From Melaminivora jejuensis (GTDB lineage Bacteria > Pseudomonadota > Gammaproteobacteria > Burkholderiales > Burkholderiaceae_C), in NCBI RefSeq assembly GCF_017811175.1, contig NZ_JACWIJ010000002.1:2728001-2792000 (forward strand): 64,000 nt of DNA, written 5' to 3'. Below are positions 54,871 to 58,364 of the stretch, in pieces. Position numbers and translations under genes: made by a program. The notes beneath the pieces are model-generated. The model saw only the letters and a program-made list of their open reading frames with translations. It was not told where the DNA came from and did not search any database. Position 1 is the stretch's first letter, and each line of letters begins with the position of its first letter.

Positions 54871-56858
54871 TCAGCCGTCGCTGGCCGGCGCCAGGCGCAG
54901 CAGCAACTGGCCGCGCGCCACCTGCTGGCCTGGCTCGGCCAGCACTTCCTCGACACGCACCCGCGCGCCGGTGCTCAAGCTGTGCTCCAGCTTCATGGAG
55001 TCGATGACCACGGCCGTGTCGTCGGCGGCCAGCACCTGGCCAGCCTCGGCGGCCACGCGGATGACGCGGCCATTGAAGGGCGCGCGCAGCTCAGTGGCGG
55101 CCTGAGCGGCGCCACGGCCCTGCGCCGGGCGGATGCTGGTGTCCTCCAGCCACAGCTCGGCGCCGCTGCCGGTCTGCACATGCCACTGGTCGGCCACCTC
55201 GCCGGGTGCGGCGCGCACGCTCAGCTCGGCACCGTCCTGGCGCAGGCGCACCACGCCCTGGCTGGCGGCCCGCCGCTCCAGGCCCAGTCCTGCAGGCCGT
55301 CGCCATCGCGCACGCACAGCTGCTGCCCGGCACCCAAGGCCAGGCCCAGCAGCCGCTCGGCGCCCCGGTGGCGCACGCGCAGCGGGCGCTCCAGCGGGCA
55401 CGCCAGCAGGGCGCGCGCATCCAGTCCCTGCAGCTGCGTAGCCAGCACTGCCGGCACCAGGGCCGCGCCCTCGGCCTCGGCCAGCCCCTCGCGGATGGGG
55501 TCGGCAGCGGTCTGCAGGAAGGGCACCAGCGCAGCGCCGGCGCGGAAAACGGGGTGCTCCAGGCAGGCTGCCAGAAAGGCCCGGTTGGTCGGCAGGCCCA
55601 GCACATAGACCTCGCGCAGCGCCCGTGCCAGGGCGTCGATGGCGCTGGCGCGGTCGGCTGCGTGCACGATCAGCTTGCCCAGCATGGAGTCGTAGTACGG
55701 CGTCACCGCCATGCCGGCCTGCAGCGCATGGTCGAAGCGCAGCACCGGCCCGGCACCCAGCGGCCTGGTGCAAAACTGGCTGGCCGCCGGCGCGGCAAAC
55801 AGCGCCACGCTGCCGGCGCAGGGCACGAAGTTCTCGTCCTCGGCGCACAGGCGCACCTCGATGGCGTGGCCGTGCAGGCGCACCTCACCCTGCGCGAGCG
55901 GCAGCGGCTCGCCGCGCGCCACGCGGATCTGCCACTCGACCAGATCCAGGCCAGTGAGCGCCTCGGTCACCGGGTGCTCGACCTGCAGCCGGGTGTTCAT
56001 CTCCATCAGGAAGAACTCGCCGCCCTCGACCAGAAACTCCACCGTGCCGGCGCCCTGGTAGCCCGCCGCCTGGGCCAGTTGCACGGCGCACTGGCCCATG
56101 CGCGCGCGCATGGCCGCGTCAACCGCCGGGCTGGGCGCCTCCTCGATGATCTTCTGGTTGCGCCGCTGCACCGAGCAGTCGCGCTCGCCCAGGTGGATGC
56201 AGTGGCCGTGCTGGTCGGCAAAGACCTGCACCTCGACGTGGCGCGGCGCCGTCAGGGCGCGCTCCAGCAGCACACGATCCGAGCCGAAGGCCGCCAGCGC
56301 TTCGGACTTGGCGCTGCGCACGGCCTCGATCAACTGCCCCGGCTGGCTGACCAGGCGCATACCGCGCCCGCCGCCGCCAGCCACGGCCTTGACCATGACC
56401 GGGTAGCCGATCTGCTGCGCCTGGCGCACCAGCAGTTCTTCGGACTGATCCTCGCCGTCGTAGCCGCTCAGGCAGGGCACGCCCGCCTGCCGCGCCAGCG
56501 CCTTGGCGCCGGCCTTGTCGCCCAGGGCCCGGATGGCATCCGGCGGCGGGCCGATCCAGGCCAGGCCGGCCTGCTGCACGGCCTGGGCGAATTCGGCGTT
56601 CTCGCTCAGAAAACCATAGCCCGGATGCACCGCGTCGGCCCCGGTGGCGCGCGCCGCCGCCAGCAGCCGCTCGATGCGCAGATAGCTCTCGGCGGAGGTG
56701 GTGCCGCCCAGGGCAAACGAGGTCGTCGCCTCGCGCACGTGCAGCGCCTCCCGATCCGGGTCGGAATAGACCGCGACGGTCTCTATGCCCATGGCGTGGG
56801 CAGTGTGGATGATCCGGCGGGCGATCTCGCCGCGATTGGCAATCAGAATTTTTTTCAT
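54871..56858 (-). pseudogene. Acyl-CoA carboxylase biotin carboxylase/biotin carrier subunit (AtuF/LiuD type), with a 1-base frameshift
   Basis: The alpha subunit carboxylates its own biotin and hands CO2 to the carboxyltransferase subunit. It starts MKKILIANRGEIARRIIHTA, then shows the ATP-grasp loop KAVAGGGGRGMRLVS and the catalytic MNTRLQVEHPVTE. The end of the first frame (DGLQDW) joins the second (GLERRAASQGVV) if one base is added to the C3 run at 55283-55285. The biotin-attachment Lys is in VVIDSMKLEHS. The repaired product has 662 residues, normal for the family, so a sequencing indel is likely. The region upstream of the start is a tandem repeat array. Confidence 0.84.
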
Positions 56859-57196
56859 ACGGTGTGCCCTCGCGGCTCGATCGCCCGCCCGCACGCTGCG
56901 CGTGCTCGGGCAATCTGCTTCGCCATGCCTGCGGCATGAACGCCGCGATTGGCAATCAGAATTTTTTCATGCGGTGTGCCCTCGCGGCTCGATCGCCCGC
57001 CCGCACGCTGCGCGTGCTCGGGCAATCTGCTTCGCCATGCCTGCGGCATGAACGCCGCGATTGGCAATCAGAATTTTTTTCATGCGGTGTGCCCTCGCGG
57101 CTCGATCGCCCGCCCGCACGCTGCGCGTGCTCGGGCAATCTGCTTCGCCATGCCTGCGGCATGAACGCCGCGATTGGCAATAAGGATGCGTTTCAT
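56828..57196 (-). repeat. Tandem array of ~113-bp units, each recreating the biotin carboxylase start
   Basis: Starts at 57196, 57083, 56970 and 56858 (minus strand) all read ATGAA(A/A-C)... with the same first ten codons, MK(R/K)ILIANRG. Units are 113, 113 and 112 bases long. In units 1 and 2 a 38-residue ORF (MKRILIANRGVHAAGMAKQI..., ending EPRGHTA) has a stop overlapping the next start (ATGA). In unit 3 the A-run is one shorter, giving MKKF-stop. Each unit ends with GAGGGC about 10 bases before the next ATG, a possible ribosome-binding site. The 82-base filler contains two hairpins with the same GCA loop (ATGCC/GGCAT and GCACGC/GCGTGC). The array lies exactly between the acyl-CoA dehydrogenase stop and the real gene. 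Confidence 0.93.
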
Positions 57197-58364
57197 GGCT
57201 TGCGTGCGATGCCCATGGTCTTGGCCAGGATGCCCAGCATGACTTCGTCGGCGCCGCCGCCGATCGAGCCCAGCCGGCCATCGCGGTAGGCGCGCGAGAT
57301 GCGGTTGTCCCAGGTAAAGCCCATGCCCCCCAGAACTGCAGGCAGGTGTCGGCTACCACGCGGCTGGTGCGCCCGGCCTTGAGCTTGGCCATGGTGGCCA
57401 GCTCCAGCACATCCTTGCCGGCCACGTAGCGCTCGCAGGCGCGGTACAGCATGGCGCGCAGGGCCTCCACCTCGGTGGCGAGTTCGCCCATCTTGAACTG
57501 GAACCACTGCATGTCCGACAGGTAGCCACCGAACATCTGGCGCTGCTGGGCGTATTCGATGGTCTGGTCGATCAGCGAGCGCAGATCGGGCCAGGCGGAG
57601 GCCGCCGCCCACAGGCGCTCCTCCTGAAACTGCTGCATCTGGTAGATGAAGCCCTTGCCCTCCTGGCCGATCAGGTTGCGCTGCGGCACGCGCACGTCGT
57701 CGAAGAACAGGTGGCCGGTGTCGCTCGCGTGCATCCCGATCTTCTCGATCTTGTGCGCCGTGATGCCAGGCAGCAGGCGTCCGTTCTCGCGCAGGCGCAC
57801 CATGATCAGGCTCTTGTTGTGGTGCATGTTGCCGCCCACCGGCTCGCTGGTGTTGGCCAACATGCACATCCAGTCGGCCTGCAGGCTGTTGGTGATCCAC
57901 ATCTTCTCGCCGCGGATGACGTAGTCGCCGCCCTCCTTTCTGGCAAAGGTGCGCACCGAGGACACGTCACTGCCCGAGCCTGGCTCGGACACGCCGATGC
58001 AGCCCACCATGTCGCCGGCAATGGCCGGGGCCAGGAATTCATGGCGCAACTCATCGCTGCCAAAGCGCGCCAGCGCCGGCGTACACATGTCGGTCTGCAC
58101 GCCAATCGCCATGGGGATGCCGCCGCAGGGGATGTGGTGCAGCGCCTCGGCCATGGCCACGCCGTAGGAGTAGTCCAGGCCGGCGCCGCCAAAGGCTTCG
58201 GGCTTGGTCAGGCCCAGCAGGCCCAGATTGCCCAGGCCCTTGAAGACCTCATGCGCCGGGAAGATGCCGGCGCGCTCCCACTCGTCCACATGCGGATTGA
58301 TGTGGTCTTCGACGTAGCGCTTGAGGGTGCGCTGGATTTCCAGGTGTTCGTGGCTCCATTCCAT
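57193..58364 (-). pseudogene. Acyl-CoA dehydrogenase (citronellyl-CoA dehydrogenase AtuD-like), with a 1-base frameshift
   Basis: FAD enzyme introducing a 2,3-double bond into an acyl-CoA. From the ATG at 58364 (MEWSHEHLEIQRTLKRYVED) it has IGVSEPGSGSDVSSV, KMWITNSLQADWMC and FQEERLWAAAS. The frame breaks in a run of six G (minus strand; 57326-57331) within LQFWG; adding one G continues it as GGMGFTWDNRISRAYRDGRL and SIGGGADEVMLGILAK. The repaired length is 390 residues, normal for the family. The phrase GVPMAIGVQTDM-like (here GGIPMAIGVQTDMCTPALARF) is what I remember of AtuD. The stop overlaps the first ATG of the tandem array (ATGA). A sequencing indel is likely. Confidence 0.84.

Follow-up and report, generated by a model that had tools for sequence, protein, structure and literature searches.

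A start-duplicating cassette of biotin carboxylase genes in Burkholderiales, a putative translational-coupling lock

Why should a gene be preceded by several copies of its own beginning? The question is raised by a stretch of 64,000 nucleotides from Melaminivora jejuensis (contig NZ_JACWIJ010000002.1, positions 2,728,001 to 2,792,000; hereafter the window), in which, on the minus strand, the end of an acyl-CoA dehydrogenase gene and its ATGA are followed by units of 113, 113 and 112 bp and then by a biotin carboxylase (BC) gene. The original prediction of three units of about 113 bp between the dehydrogenase stop and the BC gene was borne out when both strands were read and by Tandem Repeats Finder, which reports 3.1 copies of period 113 over 56828-57181 with 98% matches (score 694; none of the window's 13 other rows exceeds 71), and the copies of the gene start lie where it had placed them, at 57196, 57083, 56970 and 56858 (Table 1). 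In the first two mini-ORFs the TGA overlaps the following ATG, as ATGA, and a GAGG stands 10-13 nt 5' of each new ATG. We take the BC gene to encode the alpha-subunit of a geranyl/methylcrotonyl-CoA carboxylase, and its neighbourhood (carboxyltransferase, acyl-CoA dehydrogenase, BC, enoyl-CoA hydratase and a TetR regulator) presumably has the make-up of a branched acyl-CoA carboxylase cluster of the atu/liu-like kind.

Table 1. Features of the array and its flanking genes in the window (positions of the 64,000-nucleotide stretch)
Feature	Position	Strand	Remarks
Acyl-CoA dehydrogenase gene	57193..58361	-	start 58361 inferred; Pfam PF02771/PF02770/PF00441
Dehydrogenase stop TGA overlapping first start copy (ATGA)	57196-57193	-	sequence
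Original start copy, MKRILIANRG	57167..57196	-	opens mini-ORF 1 (57196-57080, 38 aa)
Filler 1, 83 nt	57084..57166	-	hairpin 1 57163-57149, hairpin 2 57130-57116
M arm of filler 1	57114-57096	-	GAGG ribosome site 57096-57093
Start copy 2, MKKILIANRG	57054..57083	-	opens mini-ORF 2 (57083-56967, 38 aa)
Filler 2, same sequence as filler 1	56971..57053	-	M arm 57001-56983
Start copy 3, one A fewer	56942..56970	-	mini-ORF of 4 codons
Filler 3, last base differs (...ACCGT)	56859..56941	-	hairpin 1 56938-56924, hairpin 2 56905-56891
M arm of filler 3	56889-56871	-	GAGG 56871-56868
Start of BC gene proper (fourth start copy), MKKILIANRG	56829..56858	-
T2, the BC gene's own codons 9-15	56816..56834	-	complementary to M arm
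BC gene, first reading frame	55221..56858	-	Pfam PF00289/PF02786/PF02785
Biotinyl domain, other frame	3' of BC first frame to ~54871	-	Pfam PF00364

Each unit joins a copy of the gene start to a filler. The filler had been described as a constant 82 bp; it measures 83 nt in the window, and across loci the unit ranges from 97 to 151 bp, most commonly 109, 113 or 118. Its last ~20 nt before the second ribosome site, the M arm, are approximately the reverse complement of codons 8-16 of the gene, a segment that is intact in the gene itself (T2) and present once more in the upstream copy (T1). By the measure common to all loci, which takes the 42 nt before the start, the predicted M:T2 duplex of the window reaches -43.1 kcal/mol. 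This complementarity to the gene's own codons 8-16 had been missed when the array was first read as a possible translation device; the mini-ORF frame, the stop-start overlap and the hairpin arm matching the gene's codons proved to be conserved.

The window array itself is imperfect. Its third start copy has six A's where copies 2 and 4 have seven, so that its mini-ORF stops after MKKF, and the predicted chain of 38-residue mini-ORFs holds for the first two of three links while the last is frame-broken; a real deletion and a homopolymer error are indistinguishable here. Compared with the intact genes of the relative G003, both genes that flank the array are also frame-broken, the dehydrogenase near 57327 and the BC gene in its C-terminal part (55279-55260), and here too indel errors would look no different from real decay. 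The idea that sequencing error had introduced a stop into accC of the same genome was wrong: accC is intact and encodes 449 aa.

How far does the arrangement extend? The tandem array is real, and the cassette recurs in dozens of other Burkholderiales genomes. Within its own 3.75-Mb genome the filler has no notable match elsewhere (43 matches at E up to 10, with 40 of the 60 first-look candidates scored; outside the array the best of them spans 21 bp, E 0.012); a dispersed genome repeat was rejected, since the filler is confined to the array there. Among 60 relatives, related fillers with a duplicated start came to light at BC genes of five (G001, G002, G004, G019 and G027), one of them of the window's type and the rest accC or pcc-like. 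Other gene starts, where the original prediction proposed to look, gave no instance: in all that was read the cassette was found at BC starts only. Nor is the filler ordinary intergenic sequence, because in G003, the nearest relative by BC tree, the same junction has no insert and the BC start directly adjoins the dehydrogenase end (L091). Conversion from another BC gene of the window genome was also discarded, three of its eight BC matches (L094-L096) having been read and found to be without a cassette.

A covariance model built from eight fillers, with the gene start left out and with filters that lose weak matches, gave 45 matches, spread over 30 of the 399 family genomes. Reading of every one showed that 44 lead into a BC start and that one lies at a contig edge in G089 (L252), another contig of which (L253) carries an array and the BC gene. 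A filler-only pattern, run over 84,980 GTDB species genomes, produced 29 matches in 24 stretches, comprising 26 BC starts, two matches in an array cut by a contig end in a Rubrivivax metagenome-assembled genome (MAG; L135) and one chance match in Ruminococcus coding sequence. The BC-start matches come from Acidovorax, Paracidovorax, Comamonas, Melaminivora, Ramlibacter, Extensimonas, Brachymonas, the Rubrivivax MAG and MAGs labelled only Proteobacteria or Gammaproteobacteria. Assembly breaks fall inside cassette arrays in G089 (contigs C119 and C135; L252, L253) and in the Rubrivivax MAG (L134/L135), and draft genomes may therefore hide longer arrays.

A second pattern, blind to the filler, sought a duplicated BC start. 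It was found in at least 36 of 399 family genomes and at least 6 of 399 order genomes (families f3, f5, f21, f28 twice, and f48), counts that are lower bounds because the pattern misses the window itself and gives no match in the genomes of the window, G001 and G004, all of which carry true cassettes; a reversed control pattern had no match among those listed. The same pattern returned none in the 303 genomes of the class search and two in the 329 of the phylum search, of which one (L247, in G1130) is a cassette with an M:T2 value of -44.5 and the other (L248), at -10.0, is not. L247 belongs to the same class and lies outside Burkholderiales; its M:T2 match is long and its BC gene starts MFKTVLIANRGEIAVRAIRT. 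Lateral transfer may account for it. Among 91 BC genes fetched irrespective of the cassette, a sample that leaves out accC of the five known genomes and L066, whose start was not found, four carry it. Presence is clear-cut, with 0-4 mismatches in the 28-31 bases of the duplicated start where there is a cassette and at least 11 where there is none, and the insertion point lies as a rule after codon 10 or 11 of the BC gene. Unit number, which the original prediction proposed to compare among strains, does differ between genomes, from one to three, with three units in G357 and two each in G019, G027, G072 and G248, among others.

An improved finder yielded 77 loci with distinct last units, which N-terminal motifs assign to accC (36), pcc-like (26), atu-like (11) and other BC genes (4), and 91 distinct units in all; L119, which has no clean upstream copy, and the arrays cut by contig ends (L134, L135 and L252) stand outside this set. 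In 89 of the 91 units the upstream ORF ends at or near the downstream start, its first stop falling within -20 to +8 nt of the next start, compared with 21 and 7 of 91 when either of the other frames is read. Only two units depart from this: the third of the window, whose frame is broken, and one in L118, an accC locus (G216) with a two-unit array, the upstream unit of which has decayed strongly (it reads MFTPILVAPRG and meets no near stop). The commonest stop offsets are 5, as a rule ATGTTTAA or ATGTTTGA, in 54 units and 1 (ATGA) in 14. Among genes that start with MF, offset 5 holds a stop in 54 of 66 copies downstream, as against 24 of 60 upstream and 25 of 72 genes without a cassette. Between upstream and downstream start copies, 135 changes fall in synonymous and 63 in non-synonymous codon pairs. 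None of five ribosome-site 4-mers sought was present at 9 of 77 second starts. An earlier finder, with 64 records that miss known cassettes such as L106, L113 and the window and include a chance record (L077) and a chance "unit" (L174), had given 71 of 72 units with a stop near the start and z -8.5 for M:T2.

Both the start copies and the M arm are fitted to the gene in which they reside. In permutations within class, which are inflated because loci of one class are related, the two start copies of a locus differ by 2.81 mismatches when its own are paired and by 5.23 when permuted (z -13.3, 73 loci), and the M:T2 duplex has -32.98 kcal/mol with its own gene as against -30.66 (z -10.0, 0 of 20,000 permutations, 77 loci), while T1 with M gives -25.26 as against -24.27 (z -3.7, 77 loci). 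Median duplex values are -32.1 for 63 cassette genes, -14.1 for 87 cassette-free genes and -17.4 when the stretch 5' of the first start is taken in those 63 genes. The M arm tracks the synonymous codons of its own gene: in L182 the gene's CGTGGCG faces CGCCACG in the filler, and in L175 CGAGGGG faces CCCCTCG, the upstream copy there having CGCGGCG. At the 26 positions where the start copies differ, M agrees with the downstream copy at 22, with the upstream copy at 2 and with neither at 2, a count drawn from the 35 of 63 loci that align without gaps (28 were dropped) and owing 12 of its positions to four related Acidovorax loci. Eight loci fetched later (L253-L260) all have a stop at +5 and M:T2 values between -27.1 and -38.4; L261, also fetched, duplicates one already known. 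M and T1 also explain the resemblance that had suggested a coding-homologous copy of codons 12-36 in the filler, a reading that was dropped.

Minimum-energy folds of the last unit with the gene start predict pairing of M with T2, by 8 bp or more, in 73 of 77 loci; the window is among the 73, and L155, L156, L174 and L181 are the exceptions. The downstream start would thus be held in a structure shared with the upstream ORF. In these predicted folds the second start sits in the hairpin loop, outside the stem, so any hindrance would be steric, and blocking is a guess. Hairpins 1 and 2 have a median perfect stem of 6 bp, compared with means of 3.75 and 3.51 in shuffled sequences (63 loci), and an alignment of eight fillers has two hairpin 1 pairs in which both partners change, with one filler breaking them. 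Of eight fillers folded alone, most gain little over shuffled versions (z +0.13 to -4.08 across the eight); because such single-locus scores are weak, the structure claim rests on comparison and not on folding energy.

What could such an arrangement do? On balance we favor a cis-acting cassette of BC genes that duplicates the start, makes the gene's translation contingent on that of the copy and spreads by recombination between BC genes. Its order is the native ribosome site, the start copy (A), T1 as codons 8-16 split by hairpin 1, hairpin 2 and the M arm, followed by a further ribosome site, the start (A), the intact codons 8-16 (T2) and the gene. In the mRNA, M and T2 can form a stem of ~13-20 bp that encloses the second start codon with its ribosome site and in many cases contains a small internal loop. 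Ribosomes entering at the native start would translate the mini-ORF, melt M:T2 in passing, terminate at a stop codon overlapping the second start or lying just before it, and there begin anew. The cassette would then most likely work as a translational-coupling lock. We infer both the coupling and the blocking of initiation by M:T2 in the cell from conserved layout and predicted pairing, and the effect may be regulatory or neutral; a weak lock combined with plain reinitiation would give the same conservation of stops. Because ribosomes on the mini-ORF would open the hairpin and restart, the insertion would be tolerated and nearly transparent to expression from the native site, and the cassette could for that reason sit in genes as important as accC.

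How would it spread and multiply? Units could be gained or lost through recombination between start copies. The cassette begins and ends in conserved BC sequence, and short homologous tracts would therefore suffice to carry it from one BC paralogue or species to another. In a tree that joins 64 cassette-bearing with 26 cassette-free BC proteins, the cassette label needs 14 changes, at least 11 of them forced by supported branches. The window BC groups with that of cassette-free G003 (93% protein and 87% DNA identity), and its filler is 94% identical to an Acidovorax filler whose gene is 76% identical. Over nucleotides 31-60 the window gene agrees with A. facilis at 28 of 30 positions and with G003 at 24 of 30, and from about nucleotide 90 G003 is the closer; the same comparison gives 24 for another Acidovorax (L114) and 27 for G004, so a short imported tract is only suggested. 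Two BC genes of Melaminivora alkalimesophila are 66% identical and their fillers 92%, which points to transfer between paralogues. We conclude that the cassette probably passes from one BC gene or species to another by recombination over short tracts, which the conserved gene starts would provide, and vertical inheritance with many losses may explain part of its distribution. Homologous recombination, the vehicle that we infer, would need no further agent and would fit the BC-only location, with the origin of the filler left unexplained.

Other readings share some of this evidence. An assembly or sequencing artefact has hardly any probability left: the one-base homopolymer difference in the window array, the frame breaks in both flanking genes and the arrays split across contigs in two other assemblies are what it would produce, yet independent isolates, MAGs and single-contig genomes show the same structure with different sequences, so that an artefact is refuted for the cassette as such and doubt is confined to the copy number in the window. 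Could recurrent template switching have built the cassette? The coding stretch GGCGAAATCGCC is a quasi-palindrome, which would yield a tandem duplication of the start with an inverted spacer; the start copy and M arm are indeed local, and the local complementarity could stem from switching between inverted repeats in place of selection on the RNA. Hairpin 1, the GGCGAAGC linker and hairpin 2 are, however, common to classes and genera and absent from the gene, and this homology of fillers between classes makes the process improbable. Somewhat less remote, though still unlikely, is a regulatory leader or attenuator, old, vertically inherited and often lost, in which M would switch between T1 and T2 and slow translation of the mini-ORF would set the BC level. 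The mutually exclusive T1, M and T2 segments, the conserved leader ORF and the occurrence in a number of families within the order and in a single genome beyond it would suit such a device; against it stand the patchy occurrence in 4 of 91 otherwise unselected BC genes, the gains or losses (at least 11) forced on the tree, and a T1 that hairpin 1 interrupts and whose pairing is weaker (-25.3 vs -33.0).

A selfish element, for which we see perhaps a minor chance, would have an enzyme acting in trans insert a hairpin unit at conserved BC codons with M as the guide to its target T; duplication of the start would be the price of survival in an essential gene, and the RNA coupling would be secondary. 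The insertion point does fall inside the stretch complementary to M, one exact target is used in several paralogues, the nearest relative has an empty site, copies stand in tandem, and fillers are more alike than the surrounding genes. Units of 97-151 bp leave no room for an enzyme gene, however, and no copy was found outside BC genes in the own-genome search, the family model search or the GTDB pattern search, nor any match to a plasmid or phage, so a plasmid- or phage-borne repeat was dropped. A RAYT/HUH (Y1) transposase as general driver was likewise rejected: at E 0.001 the Y1 family was not found in 4 of the 15 cassette-bearing genomes searched (G002, G122, G222 and G357), one of them a single contig with a three-unit array, and the window genome has fragments only (three partial matches). 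A trans-acting, target-guided mover is possible. We hold it tentative, and rather doubtful, that the cassette is a new kind of mobile sequence, a gene-less homing cassette specific to one gene family that reconstructs the beginning of the host gene and lies concealed in essential genes; equally tentative is the corollary that its target-complementary arm re-adapts to the codons of each new host, whose translation comes to depend on the cassette. The term element, used in the original prediction, is apt insofar as related fillers with a locally duplicated start recur in many genomes, the nearest relative has an empty site and unit number varies; autonomous mobility would go beyond this.

Comparison with known systems sharpens what is peculiar here. 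Some integrative elements target a conserved gene end and re-supply it; the cassette resembles them in its target and differs in having no integrase gene, only 97-151 bp per unit and a position internal to the mRNA. Translational attenuators of the erm type combine a leader ORF with alternative pairings and an enclosed start region, and the cassette has all three; unlike them, it has no known inducer, its leader is a copy of the gene start, and it occurs in several BC classes. Rfam 15, run on ten loci, offered no known structured RNA; up to E 1 there was one match, below the gathering score and outside the cassette. In one type of translational coupling, a downstream start paired with the upstream ORF bars 30S subunits until that ORF is translated, and termination-reinitiation takes place at overlapping stop-start pairs (in the parts consulted of PMC6728339). 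As these systems (UTNI and termination-reinitiation) are presented there, the cassette has parts of both: a structure with the upstream ORF would shut the downstream start, translation would open it, and stop and start overlap. Unlike the systems treated in those parts, its upstream ORF duplicates the start of the very gene that follows, its lock arm is approximately the reverse complement of the gene's codons, and it recurs in one protein family.

Short mobile repeats offer a second comparison. From the portions consulted, MITEs can occur inside genes (PMC10969869), as can Rickettsia palindromic elements (PMC2229807), and MITEs, REPs and the Rickettsia elements are, like the cassette, short, palindromic and non-autonomous. 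Unlike them, as far as these portions go, the cassette has one target family in place of many sites, regenerates a gene start, shows no terminal inverted repeats by eye and has no copies elsewhere in its own genome. It lacks the dispersal of a MITE, since its own genome contains the array only and 26 of 29 pattern matches lie at BC starts; the direct repeat of ~30-33 bp that flanks the fillers, in which no terminal inverted repeats were noticed by eye, is a functional gene start. The word biotin is absent from the main text of the MITE review (PMC10969869). The kind of mechanism is thus known, and its form here, a lock and leader made from the gene's own start in one protein family, was not found in the open-access literature searched, as judged by titles and the beginnings of abstracts of the papers listed, a scope that subscription papers and preprints fall outside; the statement in the original prediction that no such element had been described stands within that scope.

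If the coupling-lock reading is right, the cassette suggests how a non-coding insertion can settle in an essential, highly conserved gene, by bringing a second start and a lock that translation opens. Translational coupling could be tested on dozens of natural replicates that differ in sequence, and genomes with or without the cassette, or with one to three units, form a phylogenetic system for following a gene-less sequence as it spreads through one protein family. Annotation of accC and related genes may also be affected where gene callers pick the wrong start or miss the leader ORF. Degraded forms are perhaps to be found as well. In the second BC gene of Melaminivora alkalimesophila (L099/L140), GCGATGAGCCGAGAGATAGCC stands 5' of the first start copy and looks like the decayed tail of one more unit. 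In L020 (G021) the BC start is preceded by a hairpin that resembles a diverged filler and by a tandem repeat peculiar to this locus, with no clean start copy; this is possibly a degenerate cassette.
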